The notes under the pieces were generated by a model. The model searched no databases, had not been told where the DNA came from, and worked only from the letters and a program-made list of their open reading frames with translations. From an uncultured Pseudomonadota bacterium (GTDB lineage Bacteria; Pseudomonadota; Gammaproteobacteria; Methylococcales; Methylomonadaceae), in contig CAIQDI010000022.1 of NCBI GenBank assembly GCA_903870545.1, positions 1 through 59,850 of the forward strand: a stretch of DNA of 59,850 nucleotides, read 5' to 3'. This document shows, piece by piece, positions 3,001 through 35,773 of this stretch; position 1 is the first letter of the stretch; each line of letters opens with the position of its first letter. The translations under genes were made by a program, and so were the position numbers.

Positions 3001-5022
3001 CAACGCGGCATCATTAACCAAACTATCGGCATTCACGGTGGTGATACCGGCATTGGTCGCATAAACACCCAACGCCAAAGCCTGTGCGGTGGTCGCGCCT
3101 AATTTAACGATTTCAACGTTAGAAACATGAATTAAATCGCTGTCGGTGTAGGTTGCGGCATTGCCCAAAATCAACGTATCGGTACCATCGCCACCATCAA
3201 CGGTGTGCGTGTGTCCTGCTGTTGAGCTGGTCAAGGTAATCGTGTCATTGCCGGCACCTGATGAAATGCTGTCGCCAGCCGTTCCACCGGTTGAAATAAT
3301 GTCGTTGCCAGCACCAGAAAGAATCGTTTCTGCAACCGCTTCACCGGTGACCGTGCCAGAGGTTTCAATACCAGATGTAGTAATCACATTGGTTTCTGCA
3401 CTTTGTACCAGCGCGAATTTTTTACCCAGCACCCAATCTTGCGCGTCCGCTGAGAAATGCGCCGCTTGAGCCGGTGTAAACCGTTCCAATTGTCCGTTAC
3501 TGACGGTGGTCAATTGCGATAATTGTGCAGAAGTAATGCCTTGCACTGCGTCGGTGGTCAACGCACTCATCACAGCGGTACCGAATCCTTTAAACGACAC
3601 GGCTTTGATTTGTTCCACTTGCGCCGAAGTCAGACCGGCAATTTGTTCCGTGGTCAAGGTGCTGATTTGTGCGGAAGTCAAATACGACGCTTGATCTGGC
3701 GTTAATTTGCTCACTTGCGTGGAATCTAAACCTGAAACGGTCATTTTATTGGTAAGGTTAGCCGGTAATTCTGCCACCGCCGCTGTGTTCAACGACGTAA
3801 GTTGCGTCGATGACATTTTAGCCAATTGCGTGCCGGACATGGCTGCCGCTTGTTCCCCACCCATTTTTGAAATTTGCGCGGTGGTGAATTTAGAAACTTG
3901 TGCAGGGGTAAACGCTGCCATTTGTTCCGTCGATAACGCCGCAAATACGTCAGAACTTAAATTCTTAATCAGGGTGGTGGGCAAACTTTTCAACGTAGAC
4001 GGCTGAAGGGCAGTCACGTCTTCGGATTCCATTGACGAAATTTGAGCAGAATTAAAGTATTTTAATTGCGTTCCGGATAATGCACTGGCTTGATCTGGAT
4101 TTAACGCAACCACTTGGGCGGTCGTCAAACCTTTGATATTGCCTGCATTCAAACCTTTAATCGCGACCGAATCCAAATTGTTAATGGCTTCTGCGGATAA
4201 CACCGATAATTGCTTAGAATTCATCGCCGCTAAGGTCGAAGAAGTCAACAATGCCGCTGTTTCCGCATTGATTTCAGCCAGTTGCGCGGTTTTTAATCCT
4301 GAAATTTGCGTAGGCGTTAACGTGCTGAATTGTTCTGACGTTAACGAAGCTAACGACACGCCACCGATGTTTCCTTTCACAAAACCTTTCAACGCCGCCG
4401 GTGTTAATGCGGCTAAATCTTCGGTGTCCATTGCCGCAATCACGCTCGAACTTAATGCGCCGACTTGTGACGCGGTCAAAACGTGTGCTTGATCTACGGT
4501 TAATGCGCCGATAGTCGCGGTGGTCAAACCGCCGATATTTTTTGCGGTCAATCCGACTATCGCGACAGTGCTAATAGCAGCAATCGTTGAGTTTGCTAAA
4601 TGATTAACCGTCGCTAAACTGAATGCCGCAACTTGCGTTGATGTTAAGCCGGCAGCGTGTTCTGCGCTTAACGTTGCCGCTTGCGCGGTGGTCATTGATT
4701 TTAATTGTGTTGGAGTCAACGCGTGAATTTGGTCACTCGACAACACGGCAACTTGATCGGTTGTCAGTAATTTAAAATTTAAAGCGGGAATTTGTTTTAC
4801 ATCAATACCGGTGAATGAATCAGCCGGAACTAATTTCAATGACAAAGCGGCTAATTGATTTGCCGTTAACGCGCCAAGTTGTTCAGATGTTAACGCAATG
4901 CGTTGTGCCGATGAAAATGATTCAATATCTGAAGAGCTTAACTTAGCAAGTTCTGCCAACGTTAACGTGGATAAATCTAAATGCGTATTGAATTTTGTAG
5001 TAACTACTGCTGCTGTGGCCAT
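1..5022 (-). CDS. Giant RTX-type secreted/surface protein, N-terminal 1674 residues (3' end outside window)
   Basis: One minus-strand frame stays open from the ATG at 5022 to the window edge (1674 codons, no stop). An AGAGGA Shine-Dalgarno sits 7-8 bases before the ATG. Residues ~13-530 are a long run of degenerate octapeptides of the form [LMF]-[TS]-x-x-Q-[IVL]-x-x (for example LTTDQVAV, LSSDQIHA, LTPTQLKS). Calcium-binding RTX nonapeptides follow in three blocks: around residues 575-600, 705-745 and 1200-1250 (GGAGNDTI-like). The remainder is Thr/Ser/Ala/Val/Ile-rich with essentially no Cys, as in adhesins, S-layer proteins and other type I-secreted RTX proteins. No N-terminal signal peptide is visible, which fits type I secretion; the C-terminal secretion signal would lie outside the window. 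Whether it is an adhesin, an S-layer protein or an enzyme cannot be told. The plus-strand open frames opposite it are composition artefacts. Confidence 0.85.
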   Translation of the reverse strand, partial: MATAAVVTTKFNTHLDLSTLTLAELAKLSSSDIESFSSAQRIALTSEQLGALTANQLAALSLKLVPADSFTGIDVKQIPALNFKLLTTDQVAVLSSDQIHALTPTQLKSMTTAQAATLSAEHAAGLTSTQVAAFSLATVNHLANSTIAAISTVAIVGLTAKNIGGLTTATIGALTVDQAHVLTASQVGALSSSVIAAMDTEDLAALTPAALKGFVKGNIGGVSLASLTSEQFSTLTPTQISGLKTAQLAEINAETAALLTSSTLAAMNSKQLSVLSAEAINNLDSVAIKGLNAGNIKGLTTAQVVALNPDQASALSGTQLKYFNSAQISSMESEDVTALQPSTLKSLPTTLIKNLSSDVFAALSTEQMAAFTPAQVSKFTTAQISKMGGEQAAAMSGTQLAKMSSTQLTSLNTAAVAELPANLTNKMTVSGLDSTQVSKLTPDQASYLTSAQISTLTTEQIAGLTSAQVEQIKAVSFKGFGTAVMSALTTDAVQGITSAQLSQLTTVSNGQLERFTPAQAAHFSADAQDWVLGKKFALVQSAETNVITTSGIETSGTVTGEAVAETILSGAGNDIISTGGTAGDSISSGAGNDTITLTSSTAGHTHTVDGGDGTDTLILGNAATYTDSDLIHVSNVEIVKLGATTAQALALGVYATNAGITTVNADSLVNDAALTLTGSIATTVSLVAGDLAASAYTGNLTVTATTGTNSITSGSGNDSIDGGAGNDTINAGSGIDTVTGGAGNDSFKMVTGANGSAPSTNVFDTITDFGSLTDVINFTPAVTINATSVTVPVSGTAAISTLGLATFQTDDDTLAERIVATEKAIQSGTQVSGESALFTFGTDSYVFVSDTVAGVGANDVLVKLQGVAGGAIIKDASGDISSVKTYTVSEFVSPTSPWTVANTVYVVDTSAHIAAAVATLTTPTNVALIDAIDASDTTEIAFTVAQEVNITAAKLAADDTISITDSPSNISTGLAGLITDTAKIDYIKPNASGTLNASAVGASTALTLTGTSASNTITVTGFGGTTFAGSVSKYDVTVTAAAANVTGGAAVDTVRISGLTATGTYALGDGTDVLVTTAGANITGVNSGAATTAETLTAAGIVTMKAVQLSSFTTVNSTAANITLTTVLTPISPATTELPATAFVGDATITLADVASNTLTTVDGLVAAGATLTVVGSLTGTNTLAFVGSAETNGKFNVTGGAASDAITGGSGADTISGAAGNDVINAGAVSALDSIDGGANNDTITLTNPSSNATLNDVTIAGGTETDTLVLSVASTGLTDAGFAHVTGVETLQLTGASSVVLSTNANTSAIATIITGAGNTSINYTAGAVTAVAVNGAATTGTSTITLAGDVGYTLTSVGQANPANVVATTTTGALDLTFADDTTNSAISVGAGHSNLTIAGATGDTITVTGFSGAGKTFTGSVANFDVTMGVGDQNITLGAGDDTLRAITVPSGTINLAAGANVVVVPNAGNISGGVFGVSGGGTVHYNVDNAATGTLSAAQAALISSAAGTQNISVSDAISAAAVLPAAVETFTLYTGGANSVTLGAAAQTVVFGGASADTIAVAALPTVSTVVVGLAAADTISTTTGANLAVAKFHATTAGSATAGAATGAGILTFAGTTTLTAAQLAGFTSLTGSATPVLILADALDTGTNALTNVVSTVTDTQITLAN

Positions 5023-5198: not shown

Positions 5199-7421
5199 TT
5201 ATTTACTCGTGTGAGTAAATGCGCCATCCCAATTTTCTTCGGGCGGCGTTTCGCGGTAATGTTCAATGCGTTCCAGATAAGTTTTATACAATTTATCGTT
5301 CGGCTTTAAATCGTGCAATTGATTAAATACCGCTTCCGATTTATCCCACAACTGTTGCCGATAATCGGCTAATGCTTGATGCACCGAATCTAAAATCGTT
5401 TGTTGTTCCGGTGAAATATCCGCCAATTCGGCAATCGGTTCGTAAATTTTAATCGGTTTATTTTTACCTTTTACCCGCACGCGGTCGAGTTCGCGATAGG
5501 CAAATTCGGGCGCGGCGGCTTTGGTCGATTCACTCACAATCATTTTCACGCCGTATTGTTTGGTCAAACCTTCCAATCGTGAACCCAAATTCACTGTGTC
5601 GCCCATCACCGTGTACGCAATCCGAAATTGCGAACCCATGTTGCCGACCACCATCGGTCCGGTGTTGATGCCAATACCCAAATCAATTTCAGGCCAGTTT
5701 TTTAATTTAAACCGCTCGTTAATAATCGGTAGCGTTTCAATCACCGCTAATCCGGCGCGAACCGCTGCCGTCGCGTGTTGTTCCATGTGCAACGGTGCGC
5801 CCCAAAATGCCATAATCGCGTCGCCAATATATTTATCAATCGTGCCTTTGTGATAATGAATAGCGTGCGTTACCGGCGTGAGAATTTCGTTAATTAAATC
5901 GCACAATTCTTGCGGTTCAAGCCCTTCTGAAATGGTGGTAAAACCGCGCACGTCCGAAAAAAATACCGTCATCTCGCGGTTCTCGCCTTTCAGCGTAAAG
6001 TCTTCGTCGGTTTTGCTCATTTCTTCGACCAGTTCGCTGGGAATATATTGCCCAAAAATGTTACCCAATTGTTTTTTGCGGCGACTTTCAAAGAAAAAAC
6101 CAAAGAAAATTTGTACGCCGTAAAGCAATGAAAATAACAATAATGGCGTGGCTAAATGCGTGTCAAAATTTTTCATTGTCCACACATAAAAATTAGCTGC
6201 CACCACCATCGACGCGAAAATGATAAAGACCACCGCCGATGCCACGACTCCTAAACGCGGGAAAATCAACATCGACAAAATTAACAACACTACCAATTCC
6301 AGCGATTCGGCAGCGAGAATATAAGTCGGACGCGATTTCACCGTTTGATCCAGCAACCCGCTCAAAATGTTAGCGTGAACTTCTACCCCCGCGTAAATAT
6401 TTTGTACTGGCGTGGAACGTAAATCCAATAAGCCCGCCGCCGACGTGCCAACAATCACGATTTTATCTTTCAATTGTGAAATGTCCGCCACGCCGCTTAA
6501 AACATCCGTCACCGAAATATACGGAAAGCTGCCTTGTCGTCCTCGAAACGGTACTAATAAATTGCCGCCGTCATCAACAGGAATGGTCAATCCCGCCAAT
6601 GAAATCGCTTCTAAACGACTGTCGCCGTAATCCTCGCTGGTCATAAATTCAACCGGCGGCAAGCCCATAACGTGACGTAAAATCGACAACGATAAGGTGC
6701 TGTAAAGCTGGTCTTTGTATTCCGTCACCATCGGCAAACGGCGATAAACGCCGTCTTCATCCACATTGGAATTATTTAAATATCCGCCCAACGGAGTGGC
6801 GGATTGTAACTGCGCTAAATTGCCAATATAACTGCGTGCTTGAAATAATAACGCCGCAAAATCACGCTTTTCTGTACTCGCTAACGGCGGCGGCAACAGT
6901 CCTAATTCGTTCGTTTCTTCTTGGTGGTGGCTGAGAAAATAGCCCAACACGACGGGACGATTTTGTAAACTTTTGGCAAACTTATCGTCGTACAATAATT
7001 CGGGACGCACTTTTTCAATGGCGGATAAAAATTTACTGTCTTTCTGTAACTCGGTTTGCGCTAATTTATCCAGCGCATCCATGCCGCCGCTGGTGTCTGC
7101 CTCTGAAAATACCACGTCGAATCCCACGACTTTTGCGCCGTAATAATCGAAAAGCATATCCATCAAATACGCTAATTTATCGCGTCGCCACGGCCAATGT
7201 CCTTCTTGCGCTAAACTTTTTTCGTCAATATCCAAAATAACAATGCGATCATCCATCGTGTTCGGCATGGTGGCGCGTAAACGCAAATCGTACAAAATAT
7301 TTTCCACCCGCTGCATCGTTGGAATTGCCATCCAGCCGGCGGTGTGCGCCAAAAATACGGCGGTGAGAATAATGCACAATAACCACTGATGGATTTTCAG
7401 CCACTTGCTACTTAATTTCAT
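5199..7421 (-). CDS. CHASE2-domain class III adenylate/guanylate cyclase
   Basis: Predicted membrane receptor cyclase making cAMP or cGMP. The ATG at 7421 gives 740 aa and follows the upstream HD-GYP stop by 4 bases; an in-frame ATG at 7520 would overlap that gene by 95 bases and is less likely. Domain order: one N-terminal membrane segment (~12-33), an extracytoplasmic CHASE2 sensor domain (~40-360), three membrane segments (~367-445), then a class III cyclase domain (~480-660). Cyclase landmarks visible are the metal-binding Asp490 (FSDVRGFT) and Asp534 (IGDAIMAFW), and the transition-state pair Asn611 and Arg615 (GDTVNLGSRLE). All key residues appear intact, so the protein should be active. 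The substrate (ATP or GTP) cannot be decided by eye. It probably forms an operon with the upstream HD-GYP gene. Confidence 0.88.
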   Translation of the reverse strand: MKLSSKWLKIHQWLLCIILTAVFLAHTAGWMAIPTMQRVENILYDLRLRATMPNTMDDRIVILDIDEKSLAQEGHWPWRRDKLAYLMDMLFDYYGAKVVGFDVVFSEADTSGGMDALDKLAQTELQKDSKFLSAIEKVRPELLYDDKFAKSLQNRPVVLGYFLSHHQEETNELGLLPPPLASTEKRDFAALLFQARSYIGNLAQLQSATPLGGYLNNSNVDEDGVYRRLPMVTEYKDQLYSTLSLSILRHVMGLPPVEFMTSEDYGDSRLEAISLAGLTIPVDDGGNLLVPFRGRQGSFPYISVTDVLSGVADISQLKDKIVIVGTSAAGLLDLRSTPVQNIYAGVEVHANILSGLLDQTVKSRPTYILAAESLELVVLLILSMLIFPRLGVVASAVVFIIFASMVVAANFYVWTMKNFDTHLATPLLLFSLLYGVQIFFGFFFESRRKKQLGNIFGQYIPSELVEEMSKTDEDFTLKGENREMTVFFSDVRGFTTISEGLEPQELCDLINEILTPVTHAIHYHKGTIDKYIGDAIMAFWGAPLHMEQHATAAVRAGLAVIETLPIINERFKLKNWPEIDLGIGINTGPMVVGNMGSQFRIAYTVMGDTVNLGSRLEGLTKQYGVKMIVSESTKAAAPEFAYRELDRVRVKGKNKPIKIYEPIAELADISPEQQTILDSVHQALADYRQQLWDKSEAVFNQLHDLKPNDKLYKTYLERIEHYRETPPEENWDGAFTHTSK

Positions 7422-19379: not shown

Positions 19380-19416
19380 AAAGCGCAGAATTTTACGGTT
19401 CTGCGCTTTTTGTTTT
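19380..19416 (+). terminator. Rho-independent terminator after the multicopper oxidase gene
   Basis: An 11-base perfect stem (AAAGCGCAGAA / TTCTGCGCTTT) with an 8-base loop, followed by a T-rich tract. An in-frame TTG at 19410 of the next gene falls inside it, which argues against that codon as a start. Confidence 0.92.
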
Positions 19417-19439: not shown

Positions 19440-21191
19440 ATGACCATTCAAGCGATTCACCATTATCACAACGCCATTCACAAGATTTACCAATTCAGCG
19501 GACAATCGCACGAGCAAGCGATTAAAGACGAATTCAAACGGCTGTTAAATTATTATTGCGATTCGCGCAATTTGTTGGTCGTCAGCGAAATCAACATCAA
19601 AAATAAACGTGGCGATTTGATTCGTCCGGATGGCATTATTAAAAATAATTTGCGGCTCGATTGCGGTTATTGGGAAAGCAAAGCCAACGTCAATTTAGAA
19701 AAAGAAATTCTCGCGAAAATTAACGTCGGTTATCCGTTAAGCAACACGCTTTTTCAAGATGATAAAACCGCGATTCTGTATCAAAACAACCAACGATTTT
19801 TAGAAATACCGCTTGAAAATGAACGCGAACTTGACCAGTTATTAACGCAATTTGTCAGTTACGAAAGCCAAGAAATCAAAGAATTCAACGCGGCGATTGA
19901 ACAATTCAAACAGGATTTACCGCATGTTTTGGAAGCGTTGCGCGGCATGATTGCGGTGCAAGAAAAATCGAATCCGGCGTTTATTTCGGCGCGAGCAAAC
20001 TTTTTAACCGTTTGCCAACACAGCATCAATCCCGCGATTACGCCGACGGATATTAACGAAATGTTGTTGCAACACATTTTGACCGAAGAAATTTTCACCA
20101 GCATTTTCAGTGATTCGCAATTTCACCGTGAAAATAATATCGCCAAAGAATTGTACAACGTTGAAAATACGTTTTTCAGCGGCACCACGAAACGTAACAC
20201 GCTGGCGGGAATTCAAGGTTATTACGCGGTAATTAAAGCGAATTCTGCTGCGATTGCTGACCATCACGACAAACAGTTTTTTCTAAAATCTATCTACGAA
20301 AACTTTTACAAAGCCTACAATCCGAAAGCCGCCGACCGTTTGGGCATCGTTTATACGCCGCGCGAAATTGTGAAGTTTCAAATCGAAACCGTGGATTTAT
20401 TGCTCGAAAAACATTTCTCCAAATCACTCGCCGATGAAGGCGTGAAAATTTTAGATCCTTGCACCGGAACGGGAACGTATTTGTGTGATTTGATTGATTA
20501 TTTGCCGCCGCACCGTTTGGCGCACAAATACGCGCACGATATTTATGCCAACGAATTGGGGCTTTTGCCGTATTACATTGCGAATTTGAATATCGAATAC
20601 ACTTATCAACAAAAAATGAATGAATATGTCGAATTCAATCACATTTGTTGGATGGATACGTTGGACAATGCCAGCGCGAATTTCACCGGTTCAAATAACG
20701 ATTTGTTTGGTTTGAGCGTTGAAAATACCGCCCGTATTAAGCAACAAAACGCCGCGAAAATTTCCGTGATTCTCGGCAATCCACCGTATAACGCCAATCA
20801 ACAAAACGAAAACGATAATAATAAAAATCGTGAGTATTTCAAGGATGTGAAAAAGAAAACAGGCGGTATCGATGGGCGAATTAAAGAAACGTACATCAAA
20901 CAAAGCACCGCGCAAAAAACGAAACAATACGATATGTATAAACGCTTTATTCGTTGGGCTTCCGACAGAGTAGACGATAACGGCATTATCAGTTTTATTG
21001 TGAATCGTAGTTTTATCGACAAAAAACAAGATGATGGTTTTAGAGCTTGTGTCGAACAAGAATTTGAGTTTTGTTACGTCGTTGATTTGAGCGGTGATAT
21101 GCGTTCAAATACCGACAGTGGCGATAATGTGTTTGGGATTATGGTCGGCGTGGCGATGTTATTTTTAGTGAAGAAATCAGGAGAGAAATGA
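19440..21191 (+). CDS. N-terminal half of a split type IIG/ISP-like restriction-modification enzyme (nuclease + adenine methyltransferase)
   Basis: 583 aa from the ATG at 19440. An N-terminal PD-(D/E)xK-like nuclease is suggested by Asp64 (RPDG) and Glu79-x-Lys81 (YWESKAN). A helical connector (~130-300) precedes an N6-adenine methyltransferase domain with SAM motif I DPCTGTG (339-345) and catalytic motif IV NPPY (447-450). Family members continue into a target-recognition region in one polypeptide of about 1000 residues, but here the frame ends at FLVKKSGEK. The stop TGA is formed inside the ATGATG start of the next gene. The missing part follows at 21704 after a two-gene insertion. The two halves may still assemble, or the system may be dead. 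No helicase domain is present. Confidence 0.85.
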   Translation: MTIQAIHHYHNAIHKIYQFSGQSHEQAIKDEFKRLLNYYCDSRNLLVVSEINIKNKRGDLIRPDGIIKNNLRLDCGYWESKANVNLEKEILAKINVGYPLSNTLFQDDKTAILYQNNQRFLEIPLENERELDQLLTQFVSYESQEIKEFNAAIEQFKQDLPHVLEALRGMIAVQEKSNPAFISARANFLTVCQHSINPAITPTDINEMLLQHILTEEIFTSIFSDSQFHRENNIAKELYNVENTFFSGTTKRNTLAGIQGYYAVIKANSAAIADHHDKQFFLKSIYENFYKAYNPKAADRLGIVYTPREIVKFQIETVDLLLEKHFSKSLADEGVKILDPCTGTGTYLCDLIDYLPPHRLAHKYAHDIYANELGLLPYYIANLNIEYTYQQKMNEYVEFNHICWMDTLDNASANFTGSNNDLFGLSVENTARIKQQNAAKISVILGNPPYNANQQNENDNNKNREYFKDVKKKTGGIDGRIKETYIKQSTAQKTKQYDMYKRFIRWASDRVDDNGIISFIVNRSFIDKKQDDGFRACVEQEFEFCYVVDLSGDMRSNTDSGDNVFGIMVGVAMLFLVKKSGEK

Positions 21192-21451
21192 TGCCAACCA
21201 TTAGTTCGTTTTACGGAATTTTCATCAAAATGTTTTTTGATGACCACGCGCCACCGCATTTCCACGCTGAATACGGTGAATTTGAACTCGTGATTGTGAT
21301 TAACCCCATCAAAATTATCAGAGGCGACGCACCTAAACGTGTGAAATCAATGGTTTTAGAATGGACGGCGTTGCATCAAGAAGAATTATTGCGTGATTGG
21401 GACTTTTGTAAAAACATGGAAACGCCTTTTAACATTGAACCTTTAGACTAA
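21188..21451 (+). CDS. DUF4160 family protein (pair A, inserted in restriction-modification gene)
   Basis: 87 aa. The family pattern is clear: PTISSFYGIFIKMFFDDHAPPHFH, then a strand-rich centre and a helix EWTALHQEELLRDW. The start ATGATG overlaps the stop of the methyltransferase half and has an AGGAGAG ribosome-binding site. DUF4160 is usually found next to DUF2442, as here, and the pair is suspected to be a toxin-antitoxin module; which partner would be the toxin is not known to me. Two more DUF4160 genes lie at 28990 and 35297. They share the His-containing motif and the E-W-x-x-x-H-Q-[ED]-E-L helix but are clearly diverged. Confidence 0.85.
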   Translation: MMPTISSFYGIFIKMFFDDHAPPHFHAEYGEFELVIVINPIKIIRGDAPKRVKSMVLEWTALHQEELLRDWDFCKNMETPFNIEPLD

Positions 21452-21456
21452 ACGTC

Positions 21457-21711
21457 ATGTTTCACAAAATCAAAACCATCGAACCCAATGCAGAAAATCA
21501 CAGCATCAAAATAACGTATCACGACGACGTTATTATTGTGGCTGATTTTGATGTTGAAAAAGGCGTTATGTCGTTGTTAAAAAATCCCGAAACGTTCAAT
21601 CAAGTTGAAATTGGCAACAACGAACGTTCAATTATTTGGCGCGAATTTGACATTGATTTTTGCGCCGACAGTTTGCGATTAAAATTTTATCAAGAAACAA
21701 ACCATGACTAA
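21457..21711 (+). CDS. DUF2442 family protein (pair A partner)
   Basis: 84 aa, five bases after the DUF4160 stop. It has the typical DUF2442 arrangement: an N-terminal strand region (IKITYHDDVIIVADF), then a variable middle (LLKNPETFNQVEI) and an ending with WREFDIDFCADSLR, the family's W-x-x-x-x-D-[IL]-x-x-D-x-L signature. Its last codons overlap the ATG of the C-terminal half of the restriction-modification enzyme by 8 bases, so all four cistrons are linked by overlaps or a 5-base gap. Confidence 0.8.
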   Translation: MFHKIKTIEPNAENHSIKITYHDDVIIVADFDVEKGVMSLLKNPETFNQVEIGNNERSIIWREFDIDFCADSLRLKFYQETNHD

Positions 21712-22996
21712 AAAAGCAGAAATTTATTACTTTCGTTTTCCAAACTGCAAAGACAAAGCCGAAAAACTCAGATTGATTGATTCGTCAAACTTCAAAGATT
21801 TACCTTTCGACCGCATTTTTCCCGACAAAAATCACAACTGGATTAACCAAACCGATAACGATTTTGAAAGTTTAATGCCCGTTTGCGATAAACAAGTGAA
21901 ATTGAAAAAATCACAGAAAGCTATTTTTAGATTGTTTTCACTTGGCGTTGTAACCAGTCGTGACGAATGGATTTATGATTTTGATGCAAATAACTTAATC
22001 AAGAAAGTTGAGTTATTCATGAAAACTTATAACGACGAAATAAAACGTTGGGGGAAATCTGACCAACAATTAAAAACTAATGATTTTGTGGATAGAAAAA
22101 TCAAATGGACTTCAGAATTAGAAACACATTTACAAAAAGGTGATGTTCTTAATTTAAACAGCGATTGCGTTGTTTCATCGTTATATAGACCATTTAGCAA
22201 GAAAAAATTATATTTTGACAAAATTATTACTCATCGACTTTATCAATTACCCAGCATTTTTGGCAAAAATAGCCAGCTTGAGAATAAAGTCATCATGTGT
22301 TCGTCGGGGCAACGAAATAACTTTCTCACTTTGGCGAGTAACGAAATTCCAAGCCTTGATGTTTTTATGCCAAACGCCACGCAATGTTTGCCTTTATACG
22401 TTTACGACATCGAAGGAAATCGCCACGACAACATCACAAATTGGGCGTGGACAGAATTCAAAACGCATTATGGAATTGAACTGACGAAAATGGACATTTT
22501 TCATTATGTTTATGCGGTTTTGCATAATCCTGTTTATCGTGAAAAATACGAGCAGAATTTGAAACGTGAATTTCCGCGTGTGCCGTTTTATGATGATTTT
22601 TCGCAGTGGGTGGAATGGGGCAAAACGTTGATGGCGTTGCATTTGAATTATGAAACCGTTGAACCATTTCCGTTAAAACGTGTCGATTCAACCGCCAGCA
22701 AAATTCCAAAAGCGAAATTAAAAGCGGATAAAATAAACGGCGTAATTGAGTTGGACGAAAACACGAGTTTAAGTGGAATTCCAGCGGAAGCGTGGAATTA
22801 CAAATTAGGAAATCGGAGCGCGTTGGAATGGATTCTTGACCAATACAAAGAAAAGAAACCGAAAGATGCGACGATTGCGGCGAATTTTAACGTTTATCGT
22901 TTTGCAGATTACAAAGAAACGGTGATTGATTTATTGATGCGGGTTTGTAACGTGTCGATTTTGACAGTCGAAATTATTAAAAAAATGGAATTATGA
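21704..22996 (+). CDS. C-terminal half of the split type IIG/ISP-like restriction-modification enzyme (target recognition region)
   Basis: 430 aa. It begins MTKKAEIYYFRFPN, which reads as the direct continuation of FLVKKSGEK at the end of the 19440-21191 gene; in intact relatives a K-x-x-I-Y-Y segment follows the methyltransferase core immediately. Later features fit the specificity part of such enzymes: YRPFSKKKLYFDK, a WTEF segment, DIFHYVYAVLHNPVYREKY and a C-terminal LEWILDQY helix. The ribosome-binding site is weak (AAGAAA), so translation may depend on coupling to the DUF2442 gene. No stop or frameshift is seen inside it, so it has not visibly decayed. Confidence 0.82.
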   Translation: MTKKAEIYYFRFPNCKDKAEKLRLIDSSNFKDLPFDRIFPDKNHNWINQTDNDFESLMPVCDKQVKLKKSQKAIFRLFSLGVVTSRDEWIYDFDANNLIKKVELFMKTYNDEIKRWGKSDQQLKTNDFVDRKIKWTSELETHLQKGDVLNLNSDCVVSSLYRPFSKKKLYFDKIITHRLYQLPSIFGKNSQLENKVIMCSSGQRNNFLTLASNEIPSLDVFMPNATQCLPLYVYDIEGNRHDNITNWAWTEFKTHYGIELTKMDIFHYVYAVLHNPVYREKYEQNLKREFPRVPFYDDFSQWVEWGKTLMALHLNYETVEPFPLKRVDSTASKIPKAKLKADKINGVIELDENTSLSGIPAEAWNYKLGNRSALEWILDQYKEKKPKDATIAANFNVYRFADYKETVIDLLMRVCNVSILTVEIIKKMEL

Positions 22997-28989: not shown

Positions 28990-29256
28990 ATGCCTGTTAT
29001 TTCCTATTTCTTCGGAATTTATATTCGGATGTATAACGACGACCACAATCCGCCACATTTTCACGTTGAATATCAAGGGCAACAAGCGCAATTTGCTATT
29101 GAAAGTGGTGAACTTTTAGCAGGAAAATTACCAAGTAAAGCAATTAAGTTGGTGCGCGAATGGGCGAAAGACCATCAAGAAGAATTGTTTGCAAATTGGG
29201 AACTTGCCGTTGCCTTAAAACCGTTACAACGTATTGCGGGAGCCGATAATGATTAA
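28990..29256 (+). CDS. DUF4160 family protein (pair B)
   Basis: 88 aa beginning MPVISYFFGIYIRMYNDDHNPPHFHVEY, with the family PPHFH motif and the helix EWAKDHQEELFANW. An AAGGA ribosome-binding site lies at the end of the Uma2 gene, whose stop abuts this ATG. The downstream DUF2442 gene overlaps its 3' end by 8 bases. Confidence 0.88.
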   Translation: MPVISYFFGIYIRMYNDDHNPPHFHVEYQGQQAQFAIESGELLAGKLPSKAIKLVREWAKDHQEELFANWELAVALKPLQRIAGADND

Positions 29257-29518
29257 AATTATTCAAGCCTATTATTTGAAACAAAAAATGTTGCGTCTGC
29301 ATTTTTCAGATAATTCTTTTGGTGATTATGATTTACAGCCGCTGGTTGATAGAGATGCCGAATTAGTTTTGCCGTTGAAAGACGATGAATATTTTAAGCA
29401 GTTTTTTTTAGAATTAGGCGCGTTGTGTTGGCGAAATGGTTTGGAATTATGCCCAGACAGTATTCATCAAAAATTAGCCGAAAAACACCAGTTACATTAC
29501 GAAGTACAAGCGGTTTAA
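29249..29518 (+). CDS. DUF2442 family protein (pair B partner)
   Basis: 89 aa. The ATG at 29249 overlaps the DUF4160 stop; an upstream in-frame GTG-type start at 29234 is less likely. The strand-rich N-terminus (MLRLHFSDNSFGDYDLQPL), the centre EYFKQFFLELGALCW and the signature WRNGLELCPDSIHQK are typical of DUF2442. Confidence 0.85.
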   Translation: MIKIIQAYYLKQKMLRLHFSDNSFGDYDLQPLVDRDAELVLPLKDDEYFKQFFLELGALCWRNGLELCPDSIHQKLAEKHQLHYEVQAV

Positions 29519-35275: not shown

Positions 35276-35303
35276 TTTTTTGAAAAGGGAGAATGAATGA
35301 TGC
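35272..35303 (+). repeat. Direct repeat copy 1 (contains the start of DUF4160 pair C)
   Basis: T-rich lead followed by the core GAAAAGGGAGAATGAATGATGC. The core carries a strong ribosome-binding site and closely spaced ATGs. Copies 2 and 3 lie at 35770 and 36204. The repeat begins at the stop codon of the preceding gene in copies 1 and 2. Confidence 0.9.
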
Positions 35304-35554
35304 CAGAAATTAGTCGGTTTTACGGAATTATCATCCGAATGTATTTGATTGATAAAGAACATCCGCAGCAACACATTCATATCAAATATGGTGAGCATGA
35401 AGCCGTGATGGAATTGTTAAACTTGAACATTATCGACGGTAGTTTGCCAAAAAAATGTCGGCAATTGGTACGCGAATGGGCTGAAAATCACCAAGATGAG
35501 TTAATCGAAATGTGGAATACGCAAAATTTTCATAAAATTGAACCATTGGAATGA
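35297..35554 (+). CDS. DUF4160 family protein (pair C)
   Basis: 85 aa (or 84 from the second ATG at 35300). It has MPEISRFYGIIIRMY and the helix EWAENHQDELIEMW typical of the family. The His motif is diverged to QQHIHIKY where pairs A and B have PPHFH. Its start lies inside direct repeat copy 1, which supplies the AAGGGAGA ribosome-binding site. The DUF2442 partner follows after 3 bases. Confidence 0.85.
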   Translation: MMPEISRFYGIIIRMYLIDKEHPQQHIHIKYGEHEAVMELLNLNIIDGSLPKKCRQLVREWAENHQDELIEMWNTQNFHKIEPLE

Positions 35555-35557
35555 ATC

Positions 35558-35773
35558 ATGAAACTGGTAAATTTCAAACAAAAAGAAGGTTATCGGTTTG
35601 CATTAACGTTTGAGAATGGCGAAACAAAAGAAACCGATTTGCAGACGTTGATTGGTAATTATGTCAGCCTCGAATTTTTAAACACGGCGCGAATAGATAA
35701 CGAATGGGGTTGTTTAGAATTCAAAGATGGCGCGGTTGATATAGAACCGAAGACGTTGTACAAAGCGGGGTGA
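35558..35773 (+). CDS. DUF2442 family protein (pair C partner)
   Basis: 71 aa, the shortest of the three DUF2442 proteins here. It has the strand region YRFALTFENGETKETDLQTLIG and ends WGCLEFKDGAVDIEPKTLYKAG, a common DUF2442 ending. Its stop codon overlaps direct repeat copy 2. Confidence 0.8.
   Translation: MKLVNFKQKEGYRFALTFENGETKETDLQTLIGNYVSLEFLNTARIDNEWGCLEFKDGAVDIEPKTLYKAG

Follow-up and report, generated by a model that had tools for sequence, protein, structure and literature searches.

When analysing a 59,850-nucleotide stretch of DNA (contig CAIQDI010000022.1, in its full length called the window below) from an uncultured gammaproteobacterium of the Methylomonadaceae, a chain of four genes was found at 19440-22996 in which a restriction-modification gene is divided into two halves, A and C, by a pair of small genes resembling the toxin-antitoxin pair dhiTA (Table 1). 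The TGA stop of the A half (21189-21191) lies inside an ATGATG at 21188-21193, 5 nucleotides (nt) separate the two genes of the pair, and the ATG of the C half gives an 8-nt overlap with the 3' end of the DUF2442-like gene. An in-frame TTG at 19410 is also present ahead of the ATG of the A half. An earlier note on this DNA had given the same coordinates, overlaps at both joints and the same gap within the pair.

Table 1. Genes and other features of the divided restriction-modification locus (positions in the window)
Feature	Position	Strand	Remark
A half: nuclease, coupler and methyltransferase gene	19440..21191	+	583 residues from ATG 19440
DhiT-like toxin gene (DUF4160)	21188..21451	+	4-nt overlap with A-half stop
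DhiA-like antitoxin gene (DUF2442, weak match)	21457..21711	+	
C half: separate target-recognition gene (Type_ISP_C)	21704..22996	+	430 residues
Probable exchange block: 30-nt A-half tail, DhiTA-like pair and 11-nt C-half head	21159..21714	+	comparison with locus L026
Recognition centre of C half, diverged from nearest orthologue between better-conserved stretches	21979..22381	+	blastn gap, 40-residue identity windows

The best solved match of the enzyme is the type IIG enzyme DrdV (PDB 7lo5/7lvv), and in an alignment with its 1029 residues the A half corresponds to residues 1-579 and the C half to residues 586-1024. The PADLOC type IIG profile (1024 positions) is covered in the same order, 1-587 by the A half and 616-1012 by the C half, and the halves, falling on successive segments of both, are collinear with one enzyme chain, as the earlier note had suggested from the sequence. 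The A half consists of a nuclease region with the residues RPDG...ESK, which we take to be a PD-(D/E)XK-type nuclease motif, an ISP coupler at residues 154-275 (Pfam) and an N6-adenine methyltransferase with the motif NPPY; D59, G60, E74, K76 and the NPPY columns show no variation among 15 fused relatives. The upstream gene had been described as the methyltransferase half, which is correct as far as the methyltransferase goes, but it carries the nuclease and the coupler too. In the C half Type_ISP_C (314 bits, residues 73-410) is the sole Pfam match at E <= 0.001, and no second, type I-like recognition domain was found there.

A Pfam profile search of the A half gave no match to a helicase or ATPase family, and since the coupler already begins at residue 154 a full type ISP enzyme, with a helicase/ATPase between nuclease and coupler, is not what is encoded here; of the label type IIG/ISP-like proposed earlier the first part stands, with DrdV as the best solved match. 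Taken together the two halves contain a nuclease motif, an N6-adenine methyltransferase and a recognition domain with no ATPase match, as in type IIG enzymes, and these functions are divided between 19440-21191 and 21704-22996 rather than carried by a single polypeptide in the manner of DrdV. The locus shares a separate specificity (S) gene with the type IIB systems made up of a restriction-modification (RM) and an S gene, but not their type I-like S, in which two recognition domains go together with conserved helices. These profile and alignment data confirm that A and C together are predicted to form a DrdV-like type IIG restriction-modification enzyme encoded by two genes. A structure model of the fused relative L056, built from a 15-row alignment (mean predicted local distance difference test score, pLDDT, 75; predicted template modelling score, pTM, 0.56), again gave DrdV as top structural match; in it the joint falls within a loop of seven residues (567-573) flanked by strands 559-566 and 574-579.

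As to the pair, the product of its first gene matches DUF4160 clearly (71.8 bits, cut-off 23) and the NCBIfam model NF048015, toxin_DhiT, with 80.1 bits, under the cut-off of 100, for which reason the pair is named DhiTA-like here. The match of the second product to DUF2442 is weak (19.3 bits, under the cut-off of 23.9), so that of the DUF4160-DUF2442 pair proposed earlier the DUF4160 member is clear and the other falls below the threshold. In Dickeya dadantii dhiTA is described as a proven type II toxin-antitoxin pair with the DUF4160 toxin gene first and the DUF2442 antitoxin gene second (PMC8198452), an order which the pair of the window shares; there, however, it is reported as a bicistron with its own promoter (PMC8198452), whereas here it lies inside a restriction operon. 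By analogy the DhiT-like protein may act as a toxin. Two more DUF4160-type genes are present in the window (28990-29518 and 35297-35773), each followed by a small gene that takes the place of the DUF2442 gene, and the genome holds 16 DUF4160 matches in total. A DUF4160 match at G000:C18:112475-112669 (locus L208, about 2476-2670) is situated near the end of a 711-residue open frame, TPR-like by eye, which is perhaps a fusion protein.

Relatives of the enzyme were collected from one scan of genome contigs (33 loci), from 61 and 311 genomes of the relatives and the order of the window's organism, from the order and the phylum of a Cytophagales relative (341 and 395 genomes) and from plasmids; 369 genomes of the window's class were searched with the C half as query. 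Distinct loci were classed by whether the reading frame continues from A into C, and as only some of the first-look candidates were scored per genome the relatives counted are a minimum. Left out of the first set were L110, L074, L080 (whose contig stops close to the joint), short A matches, duplicates and loci with an A identity below 41%, and out of the second L183, L185, L186, L189, L197 and L206. A tree of 99 A halves contains 78 that are fused through the joint, 20 that are split and one (L041) that ends at the joint, and the fused/split label requires at least nine changes of state along it (with L041 counted as fused the starred branches force nine), which argues that the split state has been gained or lost many times. 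The first 75 rows of the tree, 57 fused (L041 counted among them) and 18 split, gave seven changes. Some of the fused rows (L033, L140 and L207) are interrupted further on within C.

With 78 of 99 relatives fused through the joint, an insertion into one ancestral enzyme by a toxin-antitoxin-like pair is borne out; the boundary does not always hold two genes, nor do the halves come from different families, either of which would have spoken against such an event. The suggestion of one very recent event confined to this genome finds no support in the comparison, as the pair is also present, next to a second one, in the nearest orthologue, L026, and another 18 relatives show a split at this joint with other cargo. 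No relative was found in one scan of viral contigs, and phage records gave only two distant Listeria phage matches. Among plasmids 163 records were found at E <= 1e-30, of which four cover at least 80% of the query, three of them fused and one being L110, a Roseomonas plasmid with a transposase-like open reading frame (ORF; by eye) after the A half (5737-7208) and no C half in the stretch examined. A fused relative with a frame of 1231 residues, L194, has about 600 nt extra within the recognition domain (3999-4603), away from the joint.

In each of the 20 split rows the joint is occupied by other DNA, and the composition of this cargo differs within split clades. While the window carries DhiTA, L026 has a BrnT-like pair together with DhiTA, the BrnT match being under its cut-off. 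PIN genes were found in L084, L053 and L205, a PIN block and a PemK block in L040, UPF0175 with a weak PIN match under its cut-off in L027 (a metagenome-assembled genome labelled Thiomargarita), a ParE-type pair in L144 and, on the opposite strand, DUF4411 with a peptidase_M78 protein in L139. The remaining inserts consist of UPF0175 and GIY-YIG (L085), GIY-YIG alone (L086 and L087), Y1-type transposases (L029, L142, L030 and L143; the match of L030 and the REP transposase match of L029, the latter in NCBIfam, are under their cut-offs), DUF3800 (L028) and a DinD-like gene (L032), which is encoded on the opposite strand and scores under the NCBIfam cut-off. L204 presumably carries an antitoxin-like and a RhuM-like gene, named by eye, and the pieces of it searched in Pfam gave no match; a search with the cargo gene of L150 likewise gave no match. 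The cargo of L086, L087, L142 and L143 was named from similarity to the searched proteins of L085, L029 and L030. Toxin-family domains thus occur in nine of the 20 split loci (the window, L026, L027, L040, L053, L084, L139, L144 and L205), three of these assignments being weak or indirect: BrnT of L026, where DhiT is also present, PIN of L027 and DUF4411 of L139.

The GIY-YIG cargo genes of L086 and L087 are flanked by a palindromic repeat of the type CTTCGACAAGCTCAG, present in copies, and the gene with its repeats is perhaps a small mobile element. A CACCGTCGTGTGTAT-type sequence follows the A stop, ahead of the Y1-type transposase gene, in L029 (after 5377) and in L142 (after 2700), and appears to be repeated in L029. 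As a control for toxin genes commonly lying near such enzymes, the longest ORF starting at most 600 nt after the stop of the fused frame was taken at 31 loci. An ORF was present in 30 of them, and in this rough comparison, where seven small ORFs were searched in Pfam and the others judged by eye, the Pfam matches were two HigB-like toxin domains (Gp49 and HigB_toxin) and one HipA-like kinase, while the ORF of L140 is the rest of C. In the fused relative L206 the C half is directly followed, at 1781-2546, by a small gene and by another that is PIN-like by eye.

Over the left flank and the A gene (3870 columns) the window and the orthologous locus L026 are 94.4% identical in DNA, a difference of 5.6% that would lead one to expect about 31 differences in 556 nt. 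Between a point 30 nt before the A stop and one 11 nt into the C gene, the 556 nt hold three differences, and the similarity collapses at both ends of this block, which together argue that the DhiTA block was probably exchanged between the two lineages after their divergence, with breakpoints in the enzyme's own ends. L026 carries its second pair ahead of DhiTA, and directly before DhiT the tail of the A gene is repeated over 22 nt (score 22, maximum of 12 in 100 shuffles); in L040 a 28-nt copy precedes the second, PemK block (score 28, shuffle maximum 13). In both loci the inserts are stacked and the blocks separated by a copy of the tail of the methyltransferase gene, and among the other 16 inserts tested no tail copy reached the reporting score. 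Cassette-like movement through recombination in the enzyme ends is accordingly a reading which the window/L026 case supports and the tail copies suggest. In 12 of 16 other genomes of the genus the A gene is absent from the 1.5 kb beyond the match to the neighbouring multicopper oxidase, the remaining ones offering a shorter stretch or a partial match, so the restriction locus looks like a local gain in the window and L026. The repeated splits with differing inserts, together with the block exchange, indicate a recurrent cargo slot at the joint and a DhiTA block that moved between lineages as a unit.

We consider it likely that the chain encodes a functional two-subunit DrdV-like enzyme in which the RM-S joint serves as a recurrent cargo slot. 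The RM subunit (A half) and the S subunit (C half) would be produced from a single chain of genes that overlap, the two products associating into an active enzyme, and the joint between them would take in small accessory modules, here the DhiT/DhiA-like pair. Inserts may survive there because the joint is a short variable loop between two strands, and no conserved residue would be lost by cutting it. Cargo could be gained, stacked and exchanged by recombination in short conserved ends, at the left joint in the tail of the A gene and at the right one in the head of the C gene, and since the recombination would take place in the ends of the enzyme genes the toxin-antitoxin-like pair would be carried along with the restriction locus and would probably stabilise it, possibly to the benefit of both. 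A guard or addiction function of the nested pair is conceivable. A more far-reaching version, which we hold to be possible and yet doubtful, regards the RM-S joint as a recombinase-free cassette site where cargo, often toxin-antitoxin genes, moves as units between enzyme alleles, bounded by the conserved gene tail and head, can stack, and keeps the enzyme in two subunits with the recognition subunit dependent on translation through the toxin-antitoxin genes, so that restriction, specificity switching and abortive growth arrest would be linked in one device.

The order of events could instead have been the reverse, a stop and a start codon arising at the linker to give RM and S, and cargo later filling the intergenic gap. 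Related enzymes are described both as RM + S and as fused RMS forms (PMC4081073, PMC11997821), and hsdM and hsdS of EcoKI are reported to be fusible without functional loss (PMC3510504), which would fit such a beginning. However, none of the 20 split rows is cargo-free, the shortest distance from A stop to C start being the 513 nt of the window, and the cargo-bearing split L204 has a close fused sister, L187, in the same genome (G936), which thus holds both a filled and an empty site. The DNA identity of these two is 88% along the 1500 nt of A that lead up to the joint and 95% along the last 633 nt of C, with a differing start of C, and a second fused copy in that genome, L190, shows 92.8% identity over the first 1325 nt and diverges before the joint. 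On balance a split that preceded the cargo seems unlikely.

The pair could also be a restriction-linked guard in which a phage that blocks or shuts off the operon causes the labile antitoxin to fall and the toxin to stop growth, like PrrC. The tight left joint, where the first cargo gene starts -4 to +5 nt from the A stop in nine of 18 tabulated loci (15 measurable), agrees with this. There are precedents as well, PrrC in a type I system (PMC12707154) and DarTG2 embedded in the type I locus of a phage-protective island (PMC12255303). The transposase, GIY-YIG and DinD-like cargo, however, does not fit a guard and the type of toxin is not conserved among the cargo, which leaves this explanation improbable for the slot.

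That the insertion killed the enzyme, the halves of a decaying locus looking intact only through recency, is considerably harder to uphold. The near-identity of the DhiTA block in two sister loci does point to a recent latest movement, the A half of L087 has an internal stop, which reflects either true decay or a fault in the assembly, and in L142 the A match starts only at residue 58. On the other hand both halves are open in the window, so that the earlier statement that neither has decayed still holds, and 17 of 18 split rows checked are without a stop inside the A match. The ratio of nonsynonymous to synonymous substitutions (dN/dS) was 0.046-0.245 for the A half in seven of nine split pairs, dS being infinite in the other two, and 0.104-0.403 for the C half in all nine, and it stays below 1 in both halves of the diverged split clades L085/L086 (dS about 0.48-0.49) and L029/L142 (dS about 0.53-0.62). 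Moreover, the recognition centres are strongly changed between otherwise similar C halves (window/L026, L085/L086, L086/L087 and L029/L142), with no blastn alignment between 21978 and 22382 of the window when compared with L026, a pattern that looks like specificity switching and does not agree with a dead enzyme. An assembly or binning artefact, which the draft assemblies behind the window and many relatives might suggest, is hardly credible, as a separately assembled sister genome shows the same arrangement, split copies lie on 4.9- and 5.3-Mb contigs (L142 in G353 and L143 in G337) and the split at the joint recurs with different cargo.

Some observations nevertheless weigh against a functional two-subunit enzyme with a cargo slot. 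Toxin-family domains in just nine of 20 split loci mean that the cargo is not always toxin-antitoxin, and in the window itself the DUF2442 and NCBIfam DhiT scores are both under their cut-offs. The junctions are not tight throughout, the left gap being 51-205 nt in six of 15 measured loci and the right gap 176-308 nt in five of 16, although in nine of these 16 the C start lies -8 to +3 nt from the last cargo stop. Two of the 20 splits, L030 and L150, are inferred ones, as the contig or stretch stops before C, and the majority of the split loci come from draft or metagenome-assembled genomes. To these may be added the stop in L087 and the late start of the match in L142, several dS values near saturation and the middling confidence of the L056 model.

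What seemed an oddity of one genome appears as a repeated natural experiment in which the same enzyme is either fused or split and every split seen is filled, about half of the split copies holding a toxin-family gene. It offers a tractable route to testing how defence genes get assembled into operons, whether the recognition subunit, once separate, is freer to change its specificity, and whether restriction loci are guarded against loss by nested toxin pairs.

Among the closest known systems DrdV gives a near full-length alignment with A + C, but is one chain, whereas two genes with a toxin-antitoxin-like pair between them are found here. Type ISP enzymes share the coupler, methyltransferase and C-terminal recognition domains and differ in being described as single chains with an ATPase domain (PMC11997821). 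A separate S module is given as an accepted form of type IIG (PMC4081073), and the type IIB enzymes BcgI and BsaXI also combine a nuclease-methyltransferase chain with a separate specificity subunit (PMC11997821, PMC4081073); their S is, however, described as type I-like with two recognition domains, while that of the window is of the DrdV/ISP type, and the descriptions of these enzymes in the two papers mention no cargo. In literature searches on toxin-antitoxin genes inside split type IIG enzymes or between the M and the S gene we found no normally single-chain DrdV-type enzyme with the methyltransferase-recognition joint as a repeated slot. The anticodon nuclease PrrC of the EcoPrrI type IC locus is likewise an accessory toxin whose gene lies within a restriction-modification locus, but there in a type I system and as a single sensor gene instead of interchangeable modules (PMC12707154). 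The closest parallel for the insertion is the DarTG2 toxin-antitoxin pair situated between hsdS and hsdR of the type I operon of the RRDM island, at a site which its authors call a potential recombination hotspot and where four genomes are reported to hold a different gene pair (PMC12255303). Both cases place a toxin-antitoxin pair within a restriction operon at a proposed hotspot, but DarTG2 lies between two ordinary separate genes and cuts no enzyme chain, and with the present locus the idea of an embedded-defence hotspot, published for type I systems and their gap between hsdS and hsdR, would come to include a joint within an enzyme that is normally one chain.

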